From: a virus
Length of the DNA: 64,000 nucleotides
Virus record (IMG/VR): IMGVR_UViG_3300043399_001092
Coordinates: 1-64,000 of that record
Direction: 5' to 3' (one strand)
Shown here: in pieces, positions 2,123-64,000 of the stretch
Layout: every line of letters starts with the position of its first letter
Position numbering within the stretch: position 1 is the stretch's first letter
Translations under genes and position numbers: made by a program
Notes under the pieces: model-generated
The model's database searches: none
What the model saw: the letters and a program-made list of their open reading frames with translations, nothing else
Told to the model about the DNA's origin: nothing

Positions 2123-5100
2123 ATACTTTTCATCTTCCTCGCTCCATTCCAACAATCTACCAACGTTTGCCCCAAAGGGAACAAGGCCTTTAGAATAATG
2201 GAACCATTCCGCGCGATCGTAGGAAGAGTCTTCTTCATAGACCGTGTCACGTAGTTCATCAAAGGTGTTGACAGCAGCCTTGTAAACACGAGTAATAGCG
2301 TCAGCCAAAGGAATAGCGTTCTTTGTCAGACGGGTGTACTCAAGGGGATTTACCGTAAAGGATAGTTCAGAGTATGCTTTTCTCATAATGGAATATCCAA
2401 AGCGGAGAGCATACTCATCTTCTTCGTCATCATCCGCTTTCATTGCAGCAGACAGCATCAACAGGAACGCAATCAACCCAAAGATCATACGCATTTCCAC
2501 AATGGTAGCTCCCAGTTGCGATATTCTCATTTCGGCGTAGTCCTCAAGACTAATTTGTTCGGCCAAGTCTGGATTCTCTTCTTTCCAGACCTTGTATTCT
2601 AGTTCTAAGCGTTCTACGTCCGGGGTAAACTGTTTCTCTTTACCGGCCAAACTACGGACAGCGGAAGGTATGTATGTTGCTTCAGCCATCATTCTACCAA
2701 ACCGCGCCATACCGGTAAGTACAAGATTGGTAAACGGAATGTCTTTCTTACTGGTGTCCTGGAACAAGTGTTTGAAAGCAACCCGGTATCTACCTTGTTC
2801 AGCGGCCATTGTACGATGATCATAGGACAGCTCACCAAAGCGTTCCTTTAAGATATTCGGCATCCAAGAACGATACTGCATTATCAACATACCCCATACG
2901 GTCATGTTGACGTAGGACTTGTCTTCGTCAGATACTTCACCGGAAATTCCGTTTCGTATCTTTTTTAGAGCTTCCCGGAAACGAATGTACAAATGATGCT
3001 TCTGCTCATCGGTGGCATTGATGTTGAACCGAGGACCGTCTTTTTCATCGTACTCGAATATCTCATACATCTGTCTGAACCCTTGATCTTTTAGCTCCTG
3101 CTTCAGAGTGATACCGTCTTTTTCAAAGTCTTGTTTCTTGAAGCGGACAAACTCGTTGTTCTTGTTTACACCAAAGTTCTGTGATACCGCACCGATAAGA
3201 GCGTTGTCTCTGGTTTCAGCTTCGTATCTCCAGACACCCATTGCCATACGGTCAATGTTGAAGTTCCTCCACCACTGAGCATACGTATGATCTTTGAAGG
3301 TACGGATAAAGTCCTTTTGTCTAAACTTTCCCATATCTGCCGGGTCCATACCGACGGCTTTGAGTTTTCTTTCGATAACGCTTTCGGAGTAAATGTCCAT
3401 GAACAAACCCAAAGCAGACATCTTAGTAGGTTCTTTGTAGTACAACTTAACGGCATTGTTGAATTGATCAGTGCTGTAATGAACACCTTTAGCTCCATCA
3501 ATCCACGCATTAAGTTTTGCTGCCACATAACCACCAAGAGCTTGTTTAAGTCCAAAGGACAAGGTTATCATTGTCCATCGACTTTTGAGTGTTCTCAGAA
3601 TCTCTGTCCTTGAAATCTCACGATCCCCGATTTTGTATATGGCATCTTTGGAACGCATATCAATACCGTAAAAGTGATAGTCCCTCAAAGCTTCAGCAAT
3701 TTCTTTTTCTTTAGCCGTTACTTCACGAGTAGCAAATTCAGAACCTACCCTCTTAAGACTACCTCTTGCAGTAGTTTCATACAACCGGGAGTTACCGTAC
3801 GCTTCTACCAACATGTTTGCAATACCTACTCTTTGCTTTACGGCTTTATGCGTCATGGCCATCTTACCAAACACCAGTAGAGAGTGCATTAAGTCCATAG
3901 ACTTCTCTTCTCCAGGAATCGGGTTTCCGTTGTCATCCAGTACAGGTGACATGAAATACACCGGTACTTCTCTGTTGAGTTTGGAACCTTCATCCATTGA
4001 AAGGTATCCAGAATCGTTCCTGGCCATTATGGAATTAAGAACAGCATCTGCAAGTAACTTAGGACTCATTCCTTCACTGTTCAAGAATCCTTCTACCAGT
4101 CCTTGACGAATCCACGGTATGAAGTTGGCTCTTTCTGGAGCATCTACCATTCCCAAGAAATTGCCCATGCTTTTGCGATAGAAGTTATAGAACTCACCCA
4201 AGGGAGTGTCTATAATATCCGCATACTCTTTTGTAATCCAGTTCTTGTCGGAGAACAAAGACTCTTTCATTTTTACAGCTCTATCGTTGGTCCAAGCATT
4301 GATAGCTCTTTCAGGGTTGGTTGACCAAAGATTGAAGTTCTTGTCATACTGGTCCATCCGAGCTTTAATTTTTTTCTCATCAAGACCTTGCAGCTTCAGT
4401 GTTTCTCTGAAGCGGTTTTTCCGAGCAATAAACTCCTCCTCAGTAATGTAAGGTTCGTAGTATTTTTTGAACCAATCAACATCTTCCATCTTTTTCCTGG
4501 CACTTCTTTCGTCAAAGAACTTTTTATCCAACTGACCAATGAGGTTCTTGGTTTTTGGATTAACCAGTTTCTTTATGAAAGCGGCCCGGCTGTTTGCATT
4601 TATCCACTCGTTTACACTATTATTAACCTTCGACCAGTCTTTGATAAACTTCTCCAGTTCACTGTTTACTTGCCTTTCATTCTCAAGTTTGATTTCATTG
4701 AGTGCCCTCATAAAGTAGTTCTTCTGATCGGACAATCCAAAGAACATCTGATTCAGACTACCCTCTTCTCGCTGCATTTTAAGTTCTCCGTCCTCAAGAA
4801 CATTATCTCCCAGTAGCCCGGCAATATATCGGTTGACAACCATTGAGTCCATTTCGTTCATCATGTAGGTAATCTCCTGGGTAAATGGACCAATTACCGC
4901 TTTAGCAACATCCGCAAGTTCTTTTCCTTTATGACTTGACTTAGACATCCGGGAATAATACTCACCCATGCGGGTAAACATGTCGGCCGCAGATCTTATT
5001 TTTCCTACAAGCTCTACCGCTTCTTTGTCAGTGTAATGCTTAAAATTACTTTTGCCATTAGCAAAAAACTTAGGTTCGTCCTTTCTTTTTTCGTAGTCTT

Positions 5101-9100: not shown

Positions 9101-10033
9101 TTCCTGTACACCCGGCTTAACCGCAGCACCTTGTTCACTGTATTCTTGAGCTTGTTGTTCTTGCTCTGGAGTCAAAAACAAATCCGCCAAGTATTTGTCC
9201 GTGGTAATCACTTTGCTTTGAGGAACTTTGGAAACCGCTTCATTTATCTGCGACTTCCATTCTGCAACATCATACTTAGCACCTCTCTCCTGTATTCTTT
9301 TGTTGAACTCCTTGTCCGTAAGATTGATGACCTTATCGAACAAGTCAAGGTTATTCCTCAACAGATTGGTGTTTGATGTAAACAAGGTCTTGCCTTCAGA
9401 CAAAGCTCTGTCTTTGGCTTTGTCAAACATAGACTGCATCATCTGGTTGTACTCTTTATTCCACTTTTGAGTACCGCCATCTTTTACCTGGTAAGGTGTT
9501 ACATTGTACTTGGCCGCAATTTCCTTTACAGCCTTGTTTATTTCCGTAGCATAGTCATCGTCCAAAGAAATAAACTTATCCTCACCACGAGTCTTCAAGA
9601 AGCTCTTACCGATAGTTGGATGCCCAAAGACAACCCTGTCATTTGGCGTAATCATCTTATCGAACCCCAAGGCTTGGTACACTTGGTTTGATACAGGTTG
9701 TGTACTACTTGGTGCAACACCAACATCCTTATTGTACACCAGTTTCTGGAACCCCGGCTCTGTCATAAACTCACTCTCCGGTAATCCACTTAGGTATGCA
9801 GCACCATAAAGTGCTTTTGCAATATCAACCGCAGAACGTCCGGCTATCTTGTTTTGAGATACCAGGTTATCAACGTACTCCTTATTGGCTGTATAAGAAG
9901 CCTTACGGTTGGTTATGTTTTTTTCGAGATCGCCGACAATTTTAGGGTAGAGCTCGGAAGCTCCACCCTGATTGTTTACTGCCGTATGCTCTCCTTTGTT
10001 GTTCTTGCCAAATTGAATACTGCAAAAAGACAT
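6146..10033 (-). CDS. Giant virion/cargo protein with nucleotidyltransferase-like domain
   Basis: 1295 residues from ATG 10033, chosen because it makes a TAATG junction with the preceding gene and begins MSFCSIQFGKNN; the frame stays open 16 codons further upstream. The middle contains a nucleotidyltransferase-like signature: LTGSVTLAEQG (Gly780-Ser781), then HDLDW with Asp800 and Asp802, and a later acidic strand EAKVVDIF. This is the GS...DxD...D pattern of the Pol-beta-like NTase fold, with a longer than usual GS to DxD gap of 18 residues. Around 610-700 a region resembles the zincin fold of the neighbouring vRNAP but lacks HExxH. Its location next to the vRNAP suggests injection with DNA or RNAP assembly. 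The catalytic role is unproven. Confidence 0.75.
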   Translation of the reverse strand: MSFCSIQFGKNNKGEHTAVNNQGGASELYPKIVGDLEKNITNRKASYTANKEYVDNLVSQNKIAGRSAVDIAKALYGAAYLSGLPESEFMTEPGFQKLVYNKDVGVAPSSTQPVSNQVYQALGFDKMITPNDRVVFGHPTIGKSFLKTRGEDKFISLDDDYATEINKAVKEIAAKYNVTPYQVKDGGTQKWNKEYNQMMQSMFDKAKDRALSEGKTLFTSNTNLLRNNLDLFDKVINLTDKEFNKRIQERGAKYDVAEWKSQINEAVSKVPQSKVITTDKYLADLFLTPEQEQQAQEYSEQGAAVKPGVQEAVVPFDKQAAYEKSGGFRIINTAKELNLSKDEIKTIYDNYVALMGRKREGKEITLDKFEGAVLGNLQVFKSKNTYIFGEWDSKNNVFKGRLMSSPSIRELYAELDVLFSNVSFMASVPADIGRMLEKKGLYKLDVDKPYDFRGEDMVKNLYFSNKELIEKIFKKSVDKVSYEDVAKYDTFFNYFSLLKRLKESYKKEESGKVFSLLKQIGIYDYNAYRLSKKLQNKDLSKSDVDGVVNEIIKNSSLNKVAINRQDIINNPAVYKELDTELNKSLAMYLSKFGIKTETLDDLQFKLGIDSFAHVDILNKVLYVNKNNQSDYPQQAGKVIAYMMQHNPLVTEITSSMKKYSMFKNLSQDELLDAVGDLISQELHKRTNTALPKSLLDSIAALIRQFFELLSSVRIDRINRNVGIIADGILLQNESLITSSTFKPGAVGKVIGKVSLNEALEKDKFANTIVEKMSPHFILTGSVTLAEQGTVYRPEENAVHDLDWISPLARNQSKKIFESLYPRNHYIREIISEEYTTDTWIVAPDGYTIENLVLEGSNNRIGGYDIVDKNGTVVSSYEPLSDSHTGNVEAKVVDIFSYNTYNEENFKSQRIKLASGIELNIADWRNTFKAKLTFGRLKDIWDYNRFIPYENVYREEERVEPTNVPLPPTTEAFVEQTKLDNNASNALLAKRMEPLLKQNPVELVQVDTAGMIAYNPETGKVEVPVVEQGQNDQAAKDILNQTLVGLFDKMGTKSLEAQSNTVQYSYLTGKLDRLRKQYGDKVEMKDHFKDLFSFIRGYMTDPEMTKWVNQRLDDKKTFVDNMAELVAAGVLDKRILKQNVYEYLSLADSRVIYTPPISSTTLNEMVSEIEEYGTVSAEDDVTTIKVKKDFDIVRGILDSYYAVYGDKISEFMKITENEKEFNVQLSYDLLEKYKQQLKDERATFVAANNEYQLTEVENKEGRMVDAIPSLKYLTDEEKRYAESLLNNGDFPLQCGI

Positions 10034-10455
10034 TACTTCAGGAATTTGAGTTTGTAGATCGTACTGGACATTAGTTCGCACACATCATCGATAATCTGTT
10101 GGAGCGCACCTTTGCTGAAATTCATCTTCATCATTTCTACTTCACCACACTTCTTTTGCAGGTAGCTCAAGAAGTCAATGTTGTTCTGCACCGTTATGGT
10201 AGTATCATACTCTACAATCTTACCATAGAAGCCCTGGTAGCTTTCTACGAACCGATCCAGTAGATCAGGAAGACCATCGTAGAGTTCATTCATTGCCTTG
10301 TGAGCGGCATAAGAACCGCTTTGGAGGTGTGAGATATGGGCCTGGGTAGTAACTTCAAACAGAAGGGAAGCCAGTTCACCACAGGGGCATCCTACCGAGG
10401 AGCCGGGGAGAGTGGGGAGTCCACCGTGGGACATAATGCGTCTTGCGTCAATCAT
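10033..10455 (-). CDS. Ferritin/Dps-like helical protein (DUF5856-like, tentative)
   Basis: 140 residues. The core SYAAHKAMNELYDGL...LLDRFVESYQG has the helical pattern of phage proteins of the DUF5856/Dps-like group, in which paired helices form a four-helix bundle. There is no transmembrane segment. A CPCGELASLLFE stretch near the N terminus is unusual. The gene is inserted between two giant virion genes and its stop overlaps the start of the 1295-residue gene (TAATG at 10031-10035), so it is co-translated with the cargo proteins. Possible roles are a packaged small protein or a chaperone for the large neighbours. The family assignment is from memory of similar sequences and is uncertain. 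Confidence 0.55.
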   Translation of the reverse strand: MIDARRIMSHGGLPTLPGSSVGCPCGELASLLFEVTTQAHISHLQSGSYAAHKAMNELYDGLPDLLDRFVESYQGFYGKIVEYDTTITVQNNIDFLSYLQKKCGEVEMMKMNFSKGALQQIIDDVCELMSSTIYKLKFLK

Positions 10456-10476: not shown

Positions 10477-13400
10477 TTAAGAATTACAATCTTCTAATGC
10501 GTTCTCTTTTCCTTTTTCTATGTTATTCGGCAAAGATACACTGGGTTGAGTAGTAGCAGCGGTGGGTTGAGAGGGTGCTGTGGGTTTAGACAAAACATCA
10601 TCCAACTGTTGTCTCCAATTTGAATCCTGCATATTAATAGTCGGAATACCCTTTCTTCTTGCCATTTCAACAGCTTGACCAGTTCCCCCTTCAGGTCTGA
10701 TGCCTTTACCTTCATTGGCCCAGAACAAAACAAAGTCAACAGGGGTATCCAACTTGGCACCAAATATCTGATTGGTGTTCCTTGCCATTAGCTTTAATCC
10801 ACCTTCAGTTAATGCACTTGGTTTAGGATGTATTTCTTTAGCAATAGCTATTTCTTTAGCTCCTGCTTTTTCAGGAGCAAACAAGTTTTTCTTATTTGTT
10901 CCTTTTGAAAATGCAGCATCGGCACCCTCTTCTTTATTTCCAAACGTTTTACCTGTATTAAGCGTATATCTATCCGATAACTCTTTGGCAACCTCCGTCA
11001 TTTGCTGAAGTATTTCCGGCGGAGTTTGTCTTGACCCAATACCAGCATACGTCATTGTAGGAGTAGCAGACTTACCAGGAAGTTTATTAAACTCTGTGGC
11101 ACCAGGCTTTACGATTGTTGTAATAGCACTTGGTTCTGCACTTGGCGTAGGTGCTATTTCAGTTTCCTTTTCAACAGTAAGTTTTGGTCTTGCTGCAGAA
11201 GGAATCTGTATAGAACCTCCCAAGTCAGTGTTGTAAAACTTATAACCAAAACCAGATGTGGTTTCAAAGTCTCTTCTTCTTCCGCTAAACTCTACCACAT
11301 CCATCTTTTTTGTTTTTTGGTTGTAGGACTTAAAGTACACAGGAAGACCTTTAGCTTTTTCTCTTGCCTCATGTACTTGTTCCTCCATATCATCTTGATC
11401 CTTGTAAAGATTCTCCAACAACCAAGGATTAGCAATGTAAAACTTCCTTTTGAAATCGGAAAACACTTTATCTTTTTCAGCAGTCGGCATTGACAAAAAC
11501 CCATTAATTGCTTTTTGAGCCAATGAGAATTTACTTTCTCCATCGGTTTCTTTTTCAAACATTTCTGGTTTGACGGGAAGAAACGAATCCAACGACAAGT
11601 AGCCTCCCGAGTATCCGGTAGCGTAAATGTTGTAAGCAACCAAGTCAAGGAAAAACTCTTTTGCTCCGGCGGCAACATCTTTCATCTCTTCAATGTACTC
11701 ATTCAGCATAAAAAGACTTTCCCCCATATCCGAACGACGGATAGCATTAATAGGTTTGTTGTCATAAACCGCCGCATTAAGAGTAGGTATAAGCCTTTTG
11801 ATAATTCTAAACCGTTCGTTGTCTTTGATACCTTTAATCTTCTCCAACAGTTGTGCCGCCGATCGTTTATCAATTTCTCCGGTCAAGATGTTTCTACCAC
11901 GCCGACCTTTAAAGAAATCAAGGTTTTGAACCAGGTAGTTAATAAAATCTTCGTGAACAACCTTGTTAAACTTCTTTCTTTTTTCCGCAGAAATATATCC
12001 TCCTACACTTTTGTCTATTGTCATAAATACAGGAATATCTAATTTTTCCAAGATGTAAAAAGGCTTGTACATATCATTGTACTGACGATAAATGTCAAAG
12101 AACGCACTCATTGGTCCATCGACACTTGACTTCCAAGTATCTTCAACCAATCCTGTATTAACAGAAGCCTTTGCAATTTTATCACTTCTTTCCAACCAGT
12201 CTTCCCGGCGCTTTGGTTTAAAAGTATCCAAGCTGACTGCCGACATAAAGGTTCTGTGTTTGGTTGTTTGAGACTTTAGGTCCATAAACAAATCCAACAT
12301 GTAAGCTTGGGCTTCCGGCTTAAACTCTCGAAGTATTTTCAAGAAGGTCTTTTGATCATCAATTCCTTGGGGAACATCCGGTCTTTTATACACGTTCTTT
12401 CCGTTTTCATTTTTTCCAAGAACCATGAGTTTACCCATAGCTTCCATATAAGCCGTGTCAAAACTATTGATTCTATACTTCTGACGCAGACTGTTCCTTA
12501 TCTTGTTTGTCAACCCTCGCTCCTTATACGGAACAGAATCATAAATGGTTTTGTACTTAAGGTAATCTCGGATAGCCGGTTGAGCAAAAAAGTAAATGAT
12601 GTCCATGTGAGGCACACCTCTTTGCAACAAGTATGTTGCCATGTTCAGTGTTTCACCAACAAGACCAAGTACTTTAGCATAAGGGTCTTTAACGGCGTCC
12701 ACTTGCGATGTAAGAAGCCCGGACAGCAGTTCTGATATAAACTCATTATCTTGATTTAGGATGGTGGAGAACGAAGAATTTTTATCCGCCGGAAGAAACG
12801 GAATTGTTCTAACCTGTACCACTGCACCATCTGCATCAAGAACCTCTAACCTAATAGTGTACCCGTACAACTGGTTCACGGTATTACCGGTAATAGTAAC
12901 AGCCACTTGACCCACACCGCCTTTGGAAGCAATGTTCTCCCTGGTTTTGATGACGTTGGTTACTGCGGTATAAGCATCAAAGATAGAGACCTTCTTGTCA
13001 GGATTTAAACTTTCGTAGTAAGCCTTTTCTTCCGTCGTTCTTGCAGACTTTGCGCCCTTTTCAGATATTTCTTTCAGTTTGCTTTTGGCTTCAATCCTCC
13101 AGTGCGTATCATCCGTCGGCTTCATCAAGTTCATAAAGTTCTCTTCCAGAGTCATGATCTCCAACTCTACTTCCAACAACTCATTTTCTTCTGCTTTTCT
13201 GAACAGACTTTTCTTTCCTTCCAACTCCATCAAGTTCAACTGAAGTTTTTCAAAGACCGCTTTTTTAGCAAGGTCTTGAGGACTTTCCCCAAGATCATTT
13301 ATTTCTTCCCGGTATCTTTCGATTACCTGTTTGGCTTTTTCAATACCGAGCAAATTGCTGTCTGAAAATTCCGAATCTTCCATAAGAGTTAGAAACCTAT

Positions 13401-16400
13401 CGGTGTAGTCAGACAGGTTCTTCTCAACAAGTTCTTTGGTCAAGTACAAAAACTTCATGTTCTTACCTCTTCCAGACAATATGCCGTGACCCAGGTACAT
13501 GTTTAGTTTATCAATGTCAAAGTCCGAACCTACCTTGGTAGCAATAATCGGCGGTACTACTACCATTGCCGTATTGGTAGGAACAAAGAACCTCTTAACC
13601 CGGAATACGTCGTTGGAGGACAACTGTTGATTGGGAATACGAAGACCTTTGATGAACAACATTTGTTCGTCAAACTTACTAAAGTTGCCGTCTGCAATAT
13701 CCTTGTTGACTCTCTTAACCAGTTCTATAATGTCACGGGTTCCATACAATTCCATAAAGTCGTTAAGCCATTTGGTCGGAAATGGCATACCTATATCGGC
13801 ATACTTTTTATCTCCTTCGTACATTTGATAATCCTCAGATACATAAATCCTACCTTCAGTTCCTCCTTTTTCATCAGTGACTTCCTTGTAGAGTGTAGGT
13901 GTTTTGCTATCAACTTCTTCAAAGAAGATAGAGCTTACCTGGGGCACGGAGTTACCATTACGCTTTTGTTTTGTAACTTCGTTACGCACCAAAGAGTACA
14001 GCACCGGTTCAATCTTGAACCTGTTTGGAAGCAACTCAATAGCCTTATGTTCTGCTTCCGCAAACAAGTCCATTACATCCAATACGTTATTTGCAGCACC
14101 TCTTTCGCTCAAAGATCTCTTGAGTTCACCAACAAGTTTTTTGATGTCACTGTACTCACCTTCTTTTAAGTATCCGACTTCTTTCTCAAGAAAGTTAATA
14201 GACTCTCGAATCCGGTTTGCAGTTATATCGGAATACTTAGAAACCAAGTCGTAAATACGAGATACCTGTCTTTTTTTAAAATGCGGCATATCATACCAAG
14301 ATTCTCTAAGCTCCGGTTTAATATCGATTGGTACTCCCGCATTGAACAAATTGGAAATGGTTAGCTTATACGACTGACTGGAGGATATGACTTTTCCTTT
14401 TTCCTTGTTGGCAATAGCAACCTGGTGTTTGAAGTACTTAGCTTCCATAAACTGGATGTGAGAATCCAGATCTTCTTTCACGTTGTCATTGGCCACTGCT
14501 TTACCTTTATTGACCGTGTAAGCCATCTTCATACCTTTAACCAACTTTCTTTCACCAAGCTTCTTACTGTCGTCAAGAGCTTTTTTGTTCTGAGTCTTGA
14601 TGCGTTGTCCTACTTTCCGCGCAGAACCAAAACCTAAAACACCTATGCCATTTTCAACCAGGTTGCGATGGATAGACTCCAACTTGGTTCCCATTATCTG
14701 AGAAGGCAGCATTGGATAAAAACTGGTTTTAGCTACTCCTTTTGCAGCATAACCGCTCTTTCCTTTATTTTTCCAGTATGGTCCGGCGTATTGACCTTTC
14801 ATGGTTTCGGCTAATCCCAAGAACTCGTTGAAGTAAACGTATGCGTCTTCTCCTTCGGGTACAGTGTAAGCAGAGTAGTCACCGTTGAATATGCGAACCT
14901 CCATTTCAAACAACCGTTGATGAGCTTCAGACCATTGACCCCATTGTATCTTGGTGCGCCTCCATTGAAACAGGTTGATGTAAGATTGACCGTCACCCCA
15001 GTTGGTTTTCTTATAAGCATTCTTAAGTTTAGCTGCATGAATTTCGGAAAGATTTTCAGCCTCTTGTTCACTGTATCCAAGGTTGAGCAACATGGTCTTC
15101 ATAGAACCTTTTGCTCTTTCTTTGTAGTTGTTCAGTTGACTTTCCGGTACATAGTAATCCTCTTCTGCAAATGCTTTAGTAGCAATCATGTCCGGGTTAC
15201 TGGCATTAGGAATACTGCTGTAAGACACTAATTCCCTTTTACCTTTGAAGTTCATATAGAACATACTTCCTTCTCTATTTTCGCTATTGATGATAAAATC
15301 ACTTATGGTTTTTCCGTGAGCAGATAGTTCGCCGGTGGATGACCAAACGTTGAATCGCTTAAAGCTATCAGCACCATTCTTGTAAATCTTGGGATCACCG
15401 GTAAATATAAAAGACTGTTCAATGTTTCCGGCCAACGTGTTAACCGAATACAATCGAGAAATTACTTTAATAGCTTCTTCATAAATTTGATCCTGTTGTG
15501 TTTTAGGATCAAACTTGTATTTTTCAATTACCTCTTTTTTTACATCGTTCCAAATAGCGTTACTAATACCGACCGGCATAGAAACACCTCCAACTTCTAC
15601 TTTTCTGTATATACCTGAACTCTTTATGTACTCATGCTCATTTTCAAAATGCTTCATTGCGCCCTTGTACAACTTATCGAGTTCTTGTTTGAACTCTTTT
15701 GAGTTTTTGTCTACTACACGTCCGTCCTTTACCAGGTTATCGTAGTTTACAAAAGCTCCAAAAAGACTATCCTCGTTTAAGGCTGTACTCAAATACTGAA
15801 TATCAGAAGGACGATAAGCTAAACTTTTTGCTTCTTCATAAAGATAATCTGCAAAAAACGACTTGAAAGAACTTTCAAATTCTTTAAGGCCAATGTCTTC
15901 TATCATAAGGTTTTTAGAAATCTTTCCGGCGGCTTTAGGTATTTCAAGTTGCACGGAGTAAAGAACACTTCTATCAGAGTGCTTTACCGCTTGGTAGTGA
16001 GTTACACTTGAATTTAGCAACTGGTTGATATAAGTAGAAAACAGGGTTGTTTCTTCAACCTCCGAAAGATCCTGTGCTACTGACTTGTCTTTTGTTTGAA
16101 TACCTTGGTTCACGTTCAAACGTATCTTTCCTCCAGTCTGTAACATTCTTTTAAGCCAAGAACTGTTTGTAAAACCCCAAGATTCTAAATGCGGAAGTTT
16201 AGCTTTTAGTAAATTGAACTTCTGCGACAAAGAAAGATTGGGAGTTTTGTTTATTTCTTCAACAGCGGAATTTAACTCATTGACCATTTGGGTCATGTAG
16301 TTGTTCAGAGCAATACCGTAAACCCGTTCTCCCCCGGCTGTTACCATGGAGCTTTCTGTAATAACCCCTGTAGACAATATCTGATCAGCAATAATTTTAG

Positions 16401-60660: not shown

Positions 60661-60750
60661 CAACCACTTTACTCTGTTTTTAGTTCCTGCACTCAAAAAA
60701 ATTTTTCTGGAAATTTTTGGAATCCTACAAAAAATTTTTATGGTGAGTTG

Positions 60751-60811
60751 TGGATGGGGGTTTCCCCCACCATACCCCGGTATTAACGACAGGGGCGATA
60801 TTGCCCCCGTC
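60751..60811 (+). promoter_or_regulatory. Two tandem GC-rich hairpins in early leader
   Basis: The first hairpin (60751-60772) pairs TGG-A-TGGGGG with CCCCCACCA around TTT. The second (60788-60811) pairs GACAGGGGC with GCCCCCGTC around GATATT with one mismatch. Both lie before the ATG at 60830 without a T run, so they are not terminators; they start the hairpin array described in the findings. Confidence 0.7.
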
Positions 60812-60829
60812 ATTCAAAATAACTTCGTT

Positions 60830-61267
60830 ATGGAGAACATTTTTCTTGGGTTTGAACCCGAAATCAACGAAGTGACCGGTGCCCTCGAGTGGCACGGTCG
60901 TGCTACAGTAGTAAGCGTTGACGACGAGGTCGTCGAACGCACAGCCAAAGACAATAGCGTAAAACGCTATCGTCGAATGACAATCTCTCTCCGCAACTTT
61001 GCGGGAGAGACCGTCCTTTCACCGTGCAACACGCCGGTGAAAGACACCGTGACCGAACCAAAGGTCGGTCAGGTGATCGACGTGCGGTATTCCTACCGCA
61101 ACGGTCGGACCGATTTCAATCGGTCCTTCCCGAAAGGCTCATCGTCTCGGTTAACCGAGAACGATATGCGCCAAGACCTTGCTAATCAGCATTTCGCTGA
61201 TAAGCTCAAGGCCTTGAAAAACTTCACGGCGGCCGTCAAGGTTGAACCCACCGGAGCTACTGAATAG
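60830..61267 (+). CDS. First early gene, hypothetical protein encoded by hairpin-saturated sequence
   Basis: 145 residues from ATG 60830 (MENIFLGFEPEINEV). The longer frame from 60740 runs through the two leader hairpins and is unlikely. Beta-rich N-terminal half (WHGRATVVSVDDEVVERTA), a middle with RMTISLRNFAGETVL, and a helical C terminus (RQDLANQHFADKLKALKNF); an OB-like nucleic-acid binder is possible but not shown. The coding sequence itself forms about eleven consecutive stem-loops (60874-61240), for example GACGAC/GTCGTC within a larger stem at 60915-60940. A terminator follows. Function unknown. Confidence 0.75.
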   Translation: MENIFLGFEPEINEVTGALEWHGRATVVSVDDEVVERTAKDNSVKRYRRMTISLRNFAGETVLSPCNTPVKDTVTEPKVGQVIDVRYSYRNGRTDFNRSFPKGSSSRLTENDMRQDLANQHFADKLKALKNFTAAVKVEPTGATE

Positions 61268-61274
61268 TAGCTCT

Positions 61275-61292
61275 GGGGGTTCACCCCTTTTT
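61275..61292 (+). terminator. Short intrinsic terminator
   Basis: GGGG (61275-61278) pairs with CCCC (61284-61287), followed by TTTTT, eight bases after the first early gene. Short stem, so termination may be partial. Confidence 0.6.
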
Positions 61293-61296
61293 ACCT

Positions 61297-61660
61297 TTTG
61301 ACGATAAGGGTGGTACCAACCACGCACACCGTCAAACGTTGATGCAGTTACGTAAAAACTGCAAACCACCCACGCAAACTTCCCCGCAGGGGGTAAACAT
61401 ACACCTCTTCATTATGAATTGTTGTGTGGAGTTTGCATAAGAAGAGTGAGAGAAAAATCACTATAATATAACCGGTTACTGCCCTTACACATGGCGCCGC
61501 AGTAAGTAATGTGTAACTGACCGAATCAATAGTGTAGTGTTGCTTTAAATATGTATCTTTGGTCGCAAGACACTGGTACATAGCACTATTGATCGTAATG
61601 ATTTACTGTTGGGTTAGCGACCGACAGTTAGTATACCGTTTCGCTAACGGTGCGTGGCTT
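61297..61660 (+). ncRNA. Candidate structured RNA region with two pseudoknot-like folds
   Basis: No gene is seen in this gap. In order: TTTGACG/CGTCAAA (61297-61336) enclosing GTGGT/ACCAC; TGCAGTT/AACTGCA (61343-61363); CCCC/GGGG (61382-61392). Next comes an interleaved pair, TTACTGC/GCAGTAA (61476-61482 with 61499-61505) and TTACACAT/ATGTGTAA (61485-61492 with 61509-61516). An inverted repeat TCAATAGTG/CACTATTGA follows (61526-61534 with 61584-61592). Last is a hairpin ACTGTTGG/CCGACAGT (61605-61628) whose 8-base loop GTTAGCGA is fully complementary to 61641-61648. A promoter-like TATCTTTG lies at 61554-61561. No known RNA family was recognised. Confidence 0.55.
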
Positions 61661-61697
61661 ATCCTACTTAAACGGCCCAGAAAACGATAGTAGGCGG

Positions 61698-61765
61698 GAA
61701 ACATTCGTCCAGTGGTAGGACACCTGATTCTTCAGGAGGCAAGGGTTCGATTCCCTTATGTTTCG
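61698..61765 (+). tRNA. tRNA-like element with shortened anticodon loop
   Basis: The cloverleaf is almost complete. The acceptor stem GAAACAT/ATGTTTC is a perfect 7 bp (61698-61704 with 61758-61764). The D arm is GTCC-AGTGGTA-GGAC and the variable loop AGGC. The T arm is AAGGG-TTCGATT-CCCTT, the discriminator G, and no CCA is encoded. The anticodon arm is only 14 bases, CCTGA-TTCT-TCAGG, so the loop has four instead of seven bases and no readable anticodon. Length is 68 bases. It resembles a tRNA from which exactly three loop bases were lost. It may be a decayed tRNA, a functional tRNA-like RNA or a processing signal. Confidence 0.65.
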
Positions 61766-61797
61766 CATTTCTTTCACCATTTAATTCTTTTTCTGTC

Positions 61798-62016
61798 ATG
61801 GAAACAGTTTATGTTCAGATAGATGCGACTGTCTCCTCCGATGAGCGTGGGGAGAAAGTCCATGCTATTATCACCTCTATGTCTGGAGAGGTGATAGTGG
61901 ATGCGGTGTTTGGGGATTGTTTCTCCGCACCGACACCAGACGCTTCGGGTAAACCGAAGCAAGTCCGTCGTAGAGAGATCTACGAAGACTGGATTCAACG
62001 TTACGGAAAGCGTTGA
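61798..62016 (+). CDS. Small early protein, hypothetical
   Basis: 72 residues (METVYVQIDATVSSDERGEK). Beta-strand N terminus, basic helical C terminus (KPKQVRRREIYEDWIQRYGKR). No known family. The coding sequence contains perfect stems such as TATCACCTCT/AGAGGTGATA (61869-61896), GCTTCGG/CCGAAGC (61942-61960), TCGTAGA/TCTACGA with outer AGTC/GACT (61962-61990) and CAACGTT/AGCGTTG (61996-62015). The start lies in a pyrimidine-rich leader without Shine-Dalgarno, normal for Bacteroidota. Confidence 0.7.
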   Translation: METVYVQIDATVSSDERGEKVHAIITSMSGEVIVDAVFGDCFSAPTPDASGKPKQVRRREIYEDWIQRYGKR

Positions 62017-62020
62017 GTCC

Positions 62021-62053
62021 AAGGGGGCGCAGCATCCCTTTATCACACTGCAT
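62021..62053 (+). repeat. Intergenic pseudoknot-like element, copy 1
   Basis: AAGGG (62021-62025) can pair with CCCTT (62036-62040), while GCAG inside the loop (62029-62032) can pair with CTGC (62048-62051). It shares GCAGCATCCCTTTA and a following ACTGC-ATTT with the next gap (62344-62381). A pyrimidine-rich leader follows up to the next ATG. Confidence 0.55.
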
Positions 62054-62081
62054 TTCTTTTCATCCTTAATACTTTTTTATC

Positions 62082-62333
62082 ATGAAACTGTTTATCGAAG
62101 TGGCCAATGGCCAACTCATTCTTTCCTCCGAAGACGGAAATTCCGTTCACTTCCCCAGCAAAGGGGAAGATTCCCCCAAGAGGGAGATTTCTGTTTCCGA
62201 GTATCGGGAACAGATGAACAAGTGTATCCGCAGAATCAGCGGCCCCGAAGGGGGCTGCTATGATGTGGAAACACAACAAGCCTTTGTGTACGGCTTTATA
62301 GCCGGACTCAAGGCTGCGGGTAAATTTGTTTAA
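62082..62333 (+). CDS. Small early protein, hypothetical
   Basis: 83 residues (MKLFIEVANGQLILSSEDGN). Beta hairpins at the N terminus, then a helix pair (SVSEYREQMNKCIRRIS; QQAFVYGFIAGLKAAGKF). No family recognised. Stems in the coding sequence include CTTCCCC/GGGGAAG (62150-62169), TCTGTTTCCGA/TCGGGAACAGA (62190-62214, 11 bp with one G-U), AGCGGCCCC/GGGGCTGCT (62238-62259) and CGGCT/AGCCG (62291-62304). The stop codon lies in the loop of GGTAAA/TTTACC (62319-62340). Confidence 0.7.
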   Translation: MKLFIEVANGQLILSSEDGNSVHFPSKGEDSPKREISVSEYREQMNKCIRRISGPEGGCYDVETQQAFVYGFIAGLKAAGKFV

Positions 62334-62343
62334 GTTTACCTGC

Positions 62344-62381
62344 AAGGGGGAAGGCAGCATCCCTTTAAGTAACTGCCATTT
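62344..62381 (+). repeat. Intergenic pseudoknot-like element, copy 2
   Basis: AAGGG (62344-62348) pairs with CCCTT (62361-62365), and GGCAG (62353-62357) pairs with CTGCC (62373-62377) in an interleaved order. Compared with copy 1 the second stem is longer by one G-C pair that changed on both sides, which looks compensatory. It ends in CATTTTTT before the anti-CRISPR gene. Confidence 0.55.
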
Positions 62382-62407
62382 TTTATCATTCATAAAATAT
62401 GCACACT

Positions 62408-62689
62408 ATGGCATTTTTGATGAATGCGTTCTCGTTGCAGATGGTCACGGAGTTTCCGTGTACTATCAGCATCGAGGAGGTCAACCAGCTCCCAGAGGGA
62501 CTTGAGTCGGCCATTGGACATCAAGACACGGCTAACGTGTTGGGTGTTCCAATGAACCGGGTCAACGTGTCTCTGTCGAAGGGTGACGTTGCTTATGTAG
62601 CTCAGCTACAAGGCGGTCGTCTTCCTGAGGGGAGTACTACCTTACCTGAAGGCTTCTCTTTGAAGTTTTTCAAGGTAACGGTAGGTTGA
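62408..62689 (+). CDS. AcrIII-1 viral ring nuclease (DUF1874), anti-type III CRISPR
   Basis: 93 residues from ATG 62408 (MAFLMNAFSLQMV); an in-frame ATG at 62399 would add three residues. The DUF1874/AcrIII-1 hallmarks are all present: MNAFSLQM strand, SAIGHQDTANVLGVPM with the catalytic-type His38, VSLSKGDVAYVAQL, and RLPEG with Glu74. Members of this family degrade cyclic tetra-adenylate (cA4), the second messenger of type III CRISPR, so that ancillary nucleases are not activated. The family was first characterised in archaeal viruses (SIRV gp29, STIV B116) and is also found in phages. It acts in the host cytoplasm early in infection, as its operon position suggests. Confidence 0.88.
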   Translation: MAFLMNAFSLQMVTEFPCTISIEEVNQLPEGLESAIGHQDTANVLGVPMNRVNVSLSKGDVAYVAQLQGGRLPEGSTTLPEGFSLKFFKVTVG

Positions 62690-62912
62690 CTACGCGAACG
62701 TGGTAGGAGGCATCCTTTGACCACAGTGAAGGACAGGTTTTCGGTTATCTGTCGAAGTATGCAAAAGCCGAATAAATCCCAGTACACAGGTATCTAATAA
62801 ATACTTGTGTACTGGTTGGGTCACAGCCACTATGTGGTGCTCTGGAAGACAAATCCGAACAGAGTTAAATGTGATTGAGGTAGTATCTTTTCACCACCCA
62901 AATTTTAGATCC
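62690..62912 (+). other. Structured intergenic region
   Basis: No gene is supported in these 223 bases. It contains GTGGT-AGGA / TCCT-ACCAC (about 62700-62728), resembling a diverged copy of the pseudoknot-like element (GGCATCC-TTTGACCACAGTG). It also holds a perfect 15 bp stem (one G-U) with arms at 62779-62793 and 62801-62815, and CTCTG/CAGAG further on. The 15 bp stem lacks a T run and is not a classic terminator. Likely an RNA control or processing region. Confidence 0.6.
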
Positions 62913-63308
62913 ATGAAAAAAGTAGCTGTTTCCTTTTCGGTATGGAGCCATCCGGACCTTGCCGTTCCGTGTTTGGAGTTTATGGGGATTGAAATTCCCC
63001 AAAACTTAAGTGACACCTATGATCTCTACCACTTTGCATGGGATCATATTGACGCAAAGGAAGCCGACGATCCTCAGATTGTTGCCTTCCTTGAGGAGTG
63101 GATTAAAACCCACCCTGAAGATGCTCGGCTTCTGGAAGAAGTCGAAGATGGACTCTCTTGGAACATCCAGGAAAGTGACGGATACCTGTTCCTCAACAAA
63201 TTTTTGGAGGTTTCCTCCGAGGAGTTGTTGGAGGGACTTTCTCAAGAGAAGGTTGATCTTCTGAAACACTGCCACGGAAAAGTGGTGGTTAAGGAGTTTC
63301 AACCTTAG
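62913..63308 (+). CDS. Acidic early protein, hypothetical
   Basis: 131 residues from ATG 62913 (MKKVAVSFSVWSHPDL); the longer frame from 62805 begins inside the 15 bp hairpin arm and is not used. Very acidic with helices (AFLEEWIKTHPEDARLLEEV, SSEELLEGLSQEKVDLLKH). The acidic surface could mimic nucleic acid, as many anti-defence proteins do, but nothing here proves it. Coding-sequence stems include TATGATC/GATCATA (63018-63048) and AAGGAAG/CTTCCTT (63057-63092). It sits next to the ring nuclease. Confidence 0.7.
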   Translation: MKKVAVSFSVWSHPDLAVPCLEFMGIEIPQNLSDTYDLYHFAWDHIDAKEADDPQIVAFLEEWIKTHPEDARLLEEVEDGLSWNIQESDGYLFLNKFLEVSSEELLEGLSQEKVDLLKHCHGKVVVKEFQP

Positions 63309-63421
63309 CTGCATCACCACGAGGACTGAAACCGGTCCTTGTGGTGAAAAGAGAACCTGAATTAACAGGTGCAAGGGTAGTTGGTACTATCCATTTTTAT
63401 TCATTCCTCAATCTATTCTAT
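63309..63421 (+). other. Three consecutive hairpins before small membrane gene
   Basis: First hairpin: arms 63314-63326 and 63335-63347, 13 bp with one G-U, loop TGAAACCG. Second: ACCTG/CAGGT (63355-63370). Third: GGGTAGT/ACTATCC (63375-63392, one G-U). A pyrimidine/AT-rich leader precedes the ATG at 63422. The second and third echo the anticodon and T-arm region of the tRNA-like element (CCTGA...CAGG...GCAAGGGT). Confidence 0.65.
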
Positions 63422-63538
63422 ATGGATCAGTTGTCTTATTTCATCGTTTCCACATCGGTTTTTGTAGCTTTTGTGGGAACAGTATGTTTCATTGCAGTTG
63501 TGATTGCCAAGGTATTTGAGTACCTTAGCAACCGATAA
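63422..63538 (+). CDS. 38-residue single-span membrane protein
   Basis: MDQLSYFIVSTSVFVAFVGT begins the product, which is almost entirely one transmembrane helix with a short basic/polar tail (KVFEYLSNR). ATG 63422 is preferred because the longer frame starts within a hairpin. Small one-helix proteins in phage early operons often modulate host membrane functions or superinfection; no family can be named. The coding sequence forms GTTTCCACA/TGTGGGAAC (63446-63480) and an 11-position stem with one mismatch at 63504-63531. Confidence 0.6.
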   Translation: MDQLSYFIVSTSVFVAFVGTVCFIAVVIAKVFEYLSNR

Positions 63539-63554
63539 TTGTCCCCACGGTTTT

Positions 63555-63592
63555 TGTGCATTTCTCCGTTTACCCAGAAATGCACATTTTTT
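63555..63592 (+). terminator. Strong intrinsic terminator
   Basis: TGTGCATTTCT (63555-63565) pairs perfectly with AGAAATGCACA (63576-63586), 11 bp, loop CCGTTTACCC, followed by TTTTTT. Confidence 0.92.
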
Positions 63593-63616
63593 ACTAACCC
63601 ATAATTCCACCAAAAT

Positions 63617-63859
63617 ATGGATTTTTGTGACGCATTGAAACAATGGTCTGCAATGGGCCACACAACCTCCCGTAAGACAGAAGAGGACGGCACATACACC
63701 GTTTTCTTCCTCAAAGACGGAGTACAGGTAGGATACTTCAAAGCAGTTCCCGGTTTCGGGTCCTACTGGGAGTATCCTGATGAACTAATTAAAACCACGG
63801 AAGAAACCGAACTGACAGCGGAAGACTGTTGGGACGGTGATGATTCCTATTGTGAATAA
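63617..63859 (+). CDS. Small acidic early protein, hypothetical
   Basis: 80 residues (MDFCDALKQWSAMGHTTSRK). A beta-rich centre (GTYTVFFLKDGVQVGYFKAV) and an acidic C terminus (TAEDCWDGDDSYCE). It follows a strong terminator and therefore probably has its own promoter. An 8 bp stem AGGATACT/AGTATCCT (63730-63778) encloses a CCCG/CGGG hairpin inside the coding region. Function unknown. Confidence 0.7.
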   Translation: MDFCDALKQWSAMGHTTSRKTEEDGTYTVFFLKDGVQVGYFKAVPGFGSYWEYPDELIKTTEETELTAEDCWDGDDSYCE

Positions 63860-63875
63860 TTTAAACCCCTTTCAC

Positions 63876-64000
63876 CATGAAACAGTACACCTGGACGACC
63901 CGTGACGGTCGCAAACTGGATGTTGACACCATTACGGATGTTCAACATCTCCGCAACATTATCAAGATGATGATGCGGAATGAACAACGGCTCTTAAATG
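63876..64000 (+). CDS. Partial early gene, runs off window
   Basis: Begins MKQYTWTTRDGRKLDVDTI after a CTTTCACC leader and stays open to the window end (41 residues visible). Short beta start followed by a helix (VQHLRNIIKMMMRNEQRLLN). Function cannot be judged from the fragment. Confidence 0.6.

Follow-up and report, generated by a model that had tools for sequence, protein, structure and literature searches.

Synonymous codons in the early operon of a gut- or rumen-type bacteriophage are arranged so that the gene bodies form chains of local hairpins, and sites of guide length (36 nt) are made costly to open. The operon, whose early timing we infer from its position and orientation, lies partly in the 64,000-nt stretch analyzed here (the window), which is positions 1-64,000 of a record of 79,319 nt (79.3 kb). 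The phage has the portal (phrog_6547) and major head protein (MCP; phrog_11589) genes of a tailed phage, and from family knowledge we take it to be dsDNA; its MCP is 22-24% identical to those of the crAss-like cr60_1 and Flavobacterium Fpv phages. The structured-mRNA domain occupies 60741..64000 on the plus strand and runs on past the window. From 60.74 to about 67.3 kb on this strand each gene out-folds its own synonymous-codon shuffles, in which protein and codon usage are held fixed (-3.4 to -9.8 kcal/mol per 80 nt), and late genes reach only -1.5 kcal/mol per 80 nt. The z-scores from these shuffles were -2.8 to -7.7 in all early genes except one of 38 codons, were still -1.4 to -5.0 when dinucleotides were fixed as well, and averaged -1.7 in the minus-strand genes; the dense folding that an earlier note on this DNA had described is real.

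Other measures place the signal in the same part of the genome. With dinucleotide shuffles in 80-nt windows, z fell to between -4 and -7.6 in 60,740-63,860, against a genome-wide mean of about -0.3 on both strands. The RNAz-style regression z that we used for larger scans averaged -2.17 in the sense direction over 60,740-64,040 (+), compared with -0.36 (sd 0.22, minimum -1.22) in 286 random viral 3.3-kb blocks. The signal peaks at 60.74-62.7 kb, is patchier at 62.9-63.9 kb and reaches background at about 67.3-67.4 kb; only about 6.5 of the 79 kb carry it. The earlier note had described a near-continuous array of stems at 60751-63860, in genes and gaps alike. There is indeed signal over that range and in the genes, but it extends further, and the gaps, the tRNA region (61,420-61,780) and the start codons are near background. 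An artefact of small genes or composition was rejected: the signal is missing from small genes at other places, from random viral loci, and from the early genes of T4 and the takeover genes of SPO1.

The operon's first gene (60830..61267, +; 145 aa) is an ORFan made of back-to-back hairpins (synonymous-shuffle d -9.5 kcal/80 nt, z -7.7). Folding 60740-61300 to minimum free energy (-260 kcal/mol) reproduces all eleven stems that the earlier note listed for this gene. The structure model of its protein has low confidence (pLDDT 52) and was set aside. Descent from an ssRNA phage, an idea that came from the hairpin density, was rejected because there was no Pfam or PHROG match and no homologue among related records, and the signal extends beyond the gene. 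Downstream lies a conserved non-coding element (61445..61525, +) whose interleaved arms, read off the sequence, are TTACTGC/GCAGTAA and TTACACAT/ATGTGTAA; it is a possible H-type pseudoknot and is 82.9% identical over 76 nt in a relative, G003, in which the flanking genes do not align. A tRNA-like element follows (61698..61766, +; Rfam tRNA 60.1 bits); its anticodon loop is shortened, and ARAGORN finds no full anticodon in it. Next come two highly structured genes with no assigned function, of 72 aa (61798..62016, +; d -5.9, z -3.2, 80-nt z to -7.5) and 83 aa (62082..62333, +; d -9.3, z -5.7), and then a gene of 96 aa (62399..62689, +; d -8.2, z -5.3) that is discussed below. The remaining genes in the window are one of 131 aa, structured and with no assigned function (62913..63308, +; d -5.6, z -5.1), one for a possible membrane peptide of 38 aa (63422..63538, +), whose d of -3.4 and z of -1.0 come from a single window and which is too short to be judged alone, and one of 80 aa, moderately structured and again with no assigned function (63617..63859, +; d -3.6, z -2.8).

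The gene at 62399-62689 encodes, by its sequence, a member of the AcrIII-1 (DUF1874/STIV B116-like) family, with predicted cA4 cleavage activity. AcrIII-1 is a ring nuclease that cleaves cA4 and disarms type III CRISPR. The gene product matches Pfam PF08960 at 34.6 bits (cut-off 26) and the structures 6SCF, 2X4I and 2J85 with E-values of 5e-7 to 4e-6. In the alignment its H41 falls within the IGH motif; among eight homologues H41 and R74 are invariant and E77 is present in seven. It thus shares protein family, catalytic histidine and the 6SCF match with the viral ring nuclease AcrIII-1 (SIRV1 gp29, STIV B116, DUF1874). In SIRV1 gp29 the active-site histidine is H47, and H47A is inactive (PMC7213978). 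Within the open-access literature, work on AcrIII-1 covers the protein, and the folded mRNA of the gene and its neighborhood is apparently undescribed.

Among 75 viral contigs that were chosen solely by their AcrIII-1 protein and not by structure, RNA structure was maximal on the AcrIII-1 gene and faded over 2-3 kb in 52 of 61 non-redundant loci (p about 1e-9). AcrIII-1 genes had a d of -4.13, compared with about -1.25 in distant small genes of the same contigs (p 5e-13), and 65% of their neighborhoods fell under the random viral 1% quantile. The pattern is also seen at AcrIII-1 in phage THSA-485A, where the peak is modest, and in the methanogen virus vir080. No peak was seen in SIRV1 and STIV1, the carriers of the characterized AcrIII-1 proteins, which were folded at 37 C though they are hyperthermophile viruses, or in some of the AcrIII-1 contigs (e.g. 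L114 and L059). Base pairs of the AcrIII-1 gene in the window overlapped those of four homologues at 0.33-0.48 (0.07-0.16 in synonymous shuffles) and those of most other homologues at about chance, so that we favor generic structuredness over a specific fold; a single regulatory fold was rejected, none being kept beyond the closer homologues, which also bears on the ordered RNA compaction proposed in the earlier note. The relative G003 has capsid genes that are 77% identical, early genes that are almost unrelated, and the same folding pattern. In synonymous shuffles codon choice favors pairing in G003 and in AcrIII-1 genes elsewhere as it does in the phage in the window, which upholds the suggestion that codons were shaped for pairing. 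The structured operon of G003 has no recognizable AcrIII-1; AcrIII-1 can therefore be no more than an indicator of the selective pressure.

We tentatively favor the possibility, to which we give somewhat less than an even chance, that the folded early mRNA passively evades RNA-guided (type III) targeting and that AcrIII-1 forms a second line behind it. Selection would act on foldedness as such rather than on any one fold; folding would slow the base-pairing of crRNA-guided effectors that target RNA, chiefly the type III Csm/Cmr complexes, which would have to scan early transcripts in order to respond soon enough; and AcrIII-1, translated from one of these folded mRNAs, would destroy any cA4 alarm that was raised. 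Folding would then be the passive and AcrIII-1 the active layer of one anti-type III strategy. Resistance to RNA-targeting immunity had been among the uses proposed in the earlier note, and it gains support, short of proof, because the operon encodes AcrIII-1 and because, in many phages that are unrelated, the structure is centered on the AcrIII-1 gene. There is precedent for early transcripts deciding the outcome of type III targeting in Thermus phage phiFa: only type III spacers that matched the earliest region gave protection (PMC7515739), and early transcripts would therefore face the strongest selection. Csm is recruited via complementary nascent RNA (PMC6611850). Evasion is further supported by the synonymous-shuffle tests, by the excess of sense over antisense structure, by open starts next to closed gene bodies and by the lack of signal at ArdA and AcrF1 loci. 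In Thermus phage P23-45 we saw no strong localized peak in the first 40 kb, which were scanned. Counting against evasion are G003, which lacks AcrIII-1, and the peakless SIRV1, STIV1 and contigs such as L114 and L059.

Accessibility also bears on an alternative that we consider unlikely, namely that the folds shield early mRNA from ribonucleases specific for ssRNA (Csm6/Csx1 via cA4, Cas13 collateral activity, toxin RNases or host decay) and would thereby keep AcrIII-1 and the genes around it translatable while the alarm is on. Csm6 is such an endoribonuclease (PMC4748810), the co-location with AcrIII-1 fits equally well, and the mean unpaired probability is 0.386 instead of 0.436, a drop of about 10 sd. 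However, unpaired runs of at least 10 nt are not depleted (30 vs 32 +- 4.9), start regions are open and accessibility of 8-nt sites is little altered (32% vs 37% in shuffles); RNase resistance, another use that had been proposed, is less favored because of these undepleted runs and near-unchanged 8-nt sites. It is sites of 36 nt that differ, in favor of evasion: those opening for <12 kcal make up 43% in the native early genes vs 75% in synonymous shuffles, and 82.5% vs 86% in late genes.

Structure may instead serve ordinary expression control (stability, ribosome spacing or translational coupling) with no link to immunity, AcrIII-1 merely tending to occur in such operons. This is a doubtful reading. 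Start codons are open and gene bodies closed, and the leader region, with its tRNA-like and pseudoknot elements, points to processing at the RNA level, but the meta-profile is centered on AcrIII-1 itself, and the early genes of crAss001, phi14:2, lambda, T4 and SPO1, like random viral DNA, carry no folding signature. ArdA anti-restriction genes and AcrF1 of JBD30, which acts against DNA-targeting systems, are likewise small phage counter-defense genes; they differ from AcrIII-1 in that the genes and their neighborhoods have no excess RNA structure (for ArdA in seven phage loci, six of them diverse, a viral-contig set of five loci from a near-identical mobile element being left out). It is more improbable still that AcrIII-1 merely marks accessory early cassettes that are structured in some host groups for other reasons. 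Such a view would accommodate G003 and the raised signal in the neighbors of AcrIII-1, but small genes lying far from AcrIII-1 on its contigs score close to background, and in most contigs the AcrIII-1 gene exceeds even the adjoining genes. This excess also counts against evasion by a general early-RNA shield, which predicts none.

A cause at the DNA level, such as ssDNA palindromes or hairpins (virion RNA polymerase promoters, replication, packaging) or a mutational product, we regard as very improbable. The antisense strand is structured too, and above sense in the operon's first two genes, but overall sense exceeds antisense (p 2e-5 in G000, 0.0025 in G003 and 1e-5 in AcrIII-1 genes). Virion RNA polymerase and ssDNA hairpin promoters were rejected as a general cause because crAss001 and phi14:2, carriers of giant RNA polymerase, are without signal, while THSA-485A and vir080, without such an annotated polymerase, show it at AcrIII-1. 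The giant proteins of the phage in the window gave no PDB match.

Pervasive coding-sequence folding, with energies under order-randomized controls and no one conserved structure, is likewise a feature of genome-scale ordered RNA structure (GORS) in positive-strand RNA viruses. The phage in the window differs in being a presumed dsDNA phage, with no RNA genome, whose folding is restricted to the early mRNA gene block instead of being spread over the whole genome. GORS was described in persistent animal viruses with RNA genomes (e.g. PMC3695492). Searches of open-access papers turned up neither structured early mRNAs in phages nor evasion of type III systems by folding. More guardedly than for evasion itself, we suggest that this could be an RNA-level, protein-independent phage anti-CRISPR, in which synonymous-site selection hides early mRNA from type III guides and is deployed with AcrIII-1.

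Even if the link to immunity is wrong, there is strong selection for coding-RNA structure that, in a DNA phage, is limited to the early operon and that, in phages unrelated to each other, centers on a single anti-CRISPR family, and this needs explaining. If the link is right, the early operon of G003 and others with such structure would offer a handle in the search for new anti-type III genes, synonymous sites would join the arms race and 'silent' codon-level variation in phages would not be silent, the failure of some type III or Cas13 guides would be explained, and a marker requiring sequence only could predict which phages face RNA-targeting immunity. Early-operon folding would then be a bacterial counterpart of the ordered genome structure of animal RNA viruses.

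Codon choice carries an excess of RNA folding in the early genes of this phage that is not due to composition. Between 60.74 and 63.9 kb, many 80-nt windows on the plus strand gave z-scores from -4 to -7.6 against dinucleotide-preserving shuffles, whereas 1-kb blocks in the remaining window averaged about -0.3 on both strands; an earlier note's claim of stem-loops running through coding sequence from 60,751 to 63,860 is thereby borne out. Beyond the window, the signal fades toward the right of the record until about 67.4 kb. When synonymous codons were shuffled within each gene, leaving protein and codon usage unchanged, stability was lost: genes from 60,830 to 67,295 exceed their own shuffles in stability by 3.4 to 9.8 kcal/mol per 80 nt (z -2.8 to -7.7, except a 38-codon gene at -1.0), in agreement with the note's proposal that codons were shaped for pairing. 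With dinucleotides fixed too, early-gene z-scores were still -1.4 to -5.0. The early genes also lie below 28 minus-strand genes given the same synonymous test (average -1.5 kcal, z -1.7), and plus-strand genes farther right are near background again. All z-scores rest on folding energies modelled at 37 C.

The record is 79,319 nt long, with the window covering bases 1-64,000. PHROG places its head and portal genes in tailed-phage families, and distant similarity links the capsid protein to crAss-like and Flavobacterium Fpv phages. Leftward genes (late, structural) occupy the side left of 60.3 kb and rightward genes the side right of 60.8 kb, the label 'early' for the latter being given on position and orientation alone. 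Plus-strand genes at the left end (918-1816) show mild excess structure (synonymous differences of -3.6 and -2.1 kcal/mol per 80 nt) and, should the genome be circular, are possibly the other end of the early operon; the ends of the record showed no overlap. Further right (record 76119-78083; 13119-15083 of the continuation, L002), a 654-aa ORF resembles, with its translation judged by eye, a ribonucleotide reductase small subunit split by an intein.

The near-continuity originally described holds for gene bodies (mean z -2.1) and not for start-codon windows (-0.8; p 0.0008) or the tRNA/leader stretch at 61,420-61,780, which is near background in 80-nt windows. A relative with similar capsid genes (G003) has a like contrast, with bodies at -2.4 and starts at -0.25. 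A non-coding element at 61445-61525 is conserved in G003 (4957-5030 of L020, the stretch holding its early operon; 82.9% identity over 76 nt), although the genes beside it do not align. Its arms, TTACTGC/GCAGTAA and TTACACAT/ATGTGTAA, are predicted to interleave around a GGCGCC core in the style of an H-type pseudoknot, and a pattern scan of viral contigs matched the relative only. A tRNA-like element at 61698-61766 (Rfam tRNA, 60 bits) has a 4-nt anticodon loop, and at a comparable place in the relative (L020, about 4589-4632) there is an apparent acceptor/T-arm minihelix without an anticodon arm. These last two elements are possibly RNase P/Z processing marks and not decoding tRNAs.

The two phages share about 77% identity across the capsid block, and for all but two early genes no homologue was detected in G003. 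Nevertheless, G003 has a plus-strand structure peak at the matching place, and its first six early genes gave synonymous-shuffle differences of -2.5 to -9.1; structure has therefore been retained while early genes were swapped.

The early operon encodes AcrIII-1 (62399-62689, plus strand; Pfam STIV_B116-like/DUF1874, matching solved structures 6SCF and 2X4I). AcrIII-1 degrades cA4, the alarm molecule of type III systems. Eight aligned homologues all keep the active-site histidine, and the window copy is a predicted ring nuclease. In SIRV1 gp29 the H47A change abolishes activity, and STIV B116 is an early-expressed protein (PMC7213978). Among 75 viral contigs gathered through AcrIII-1 protein similarity alone, sense z weakened with distance from AcrIII-1: -1.76 in the gene itself, -1.13 for sequence up to 1 kb away, and about -0.5 to -0.6 farther out than 3 kb. 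With near-duplicates removed, 52 of 61 loci were more structured close to AcrIII-1 than far from it (p 1.2e-9), these loci being homologous and not fully independent, with mostly independent surroundings. Furthermore, 65% of the neighbourhoods fell below the 1% quantile of 286 random viral blocks. Synonymous-shuffle averages were -4.1 kcal for AcrIII-1 genes, about -2.1 for neighbours, about -1.25 for distant small genes of the same contigs (p 5e-13 versus AcrIII-1) and about -1.0 for large ones. In the unrelated Thermoanaerobacterium phage THSA-485A and in methanogen virus vir080, the block with the strongest signal is the one at the AcrIII-1 gene; loci from cellular assemblies gave a mixed result. 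The most extreme neighbourhoods (sense z -2.1 to -2.9) are in L109 (gene 10001-10168), L065, L064 and L070; the match in L109 spans residues 4-59 only.

No comparable structured block was seen in crAss001, phi14:2, lambda, the SPO1 takeover module, the T4 early region or JBD30 (AcrF1), and synonymous-shuffle effects were about zero (-1.7 to +0.6) at seven ArdA loci and AcrF1. SIRV1 and STIV1 carry AcrIII-1 yet show no structure peak; because these are hyperthermophile viruses folded at 37 C, we treat them as uninformative, though counted against the idea.

Pairing is conserved in four closer AcrIII-1 homologues (base-pair overlap 0.33-0.48, versus 0.07-0.16 in synonymous shuffles) and near chance in most others (28-41% third-position identity), yet many of those genes are structured. 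The simplest reading is that selection favours being folded while individual pairs turn over. The closest known kind is the genome-scale ordered RNA structure of positive-strand RNA viruses, likewise pervasive, generic and within coding sequence; here, however, the genome is that of a DNA phage and only its early genes are structured in this way. Within the open-access papers searched, neither such structure in phages nor type III evasion by folding was reported.

Across the early region, structure is greater on the sense than on the antisense strand (p 2e-5), which favours selection acting on RNA, although a DNA-level component may contribute, as antisense structure equals or exceeds sense in the first two genes. 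Unpaired probability is 0.386 in native sequence versus 0.436 in shuffles. Sites the size of a guide change most: an opening cost of <12 kcal/mol applies to 43% of 36-nt sites in native early genes and to 75% in their synonymous shuffles (82.5% versus 86% for late genes). A close rival is that folds shield early mRNA from RNases, but this fits less well with 8-nt sites, whose accessibility is barely altered, and with long unpaired runs, which are no rarer than in shuffles. Folding may instead serve expression control.

Type III complexes require pairing of a long guide with the transcript. Csm is recruited via complementary nascent RNA (PMC6611850), and for Thermus phage phiFa protection came only from type III spacers directed at the earliest region, those for middle and late genes failing against the phage though functional against plasmids (PMC7515739); hiding thus pays in early transcripts. 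The folding, its synonymous-site origin and location, the guide-scale opening cost and the AcrIII-1 association fit a two-layer defence, in which folded early mRNAs would obstruct guide pairing and AcrIII-1 from the same operon would then remove cA4. The presence of AcrIII-1 in this operon and the centring of structure on AcrIII-1 genes also lend support to the resistance to RNA-targeting immunity that the earlier note listed among possible uses; an obstruction of type III (or Cas13) by folding inside cells is our inference. This general model does not fully explain why, in most contigs, the AcrIII-1 gene itself is more structured than its neighbours. Since G003 has no recognisable AcrIII-1, the gene would be a marker of pressure and not a requirement. 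The six structured early genes of G003 (L020 4089-8235) are without a convincing family match; if the hypothesis is true, they are candidates for anti-type III functions.
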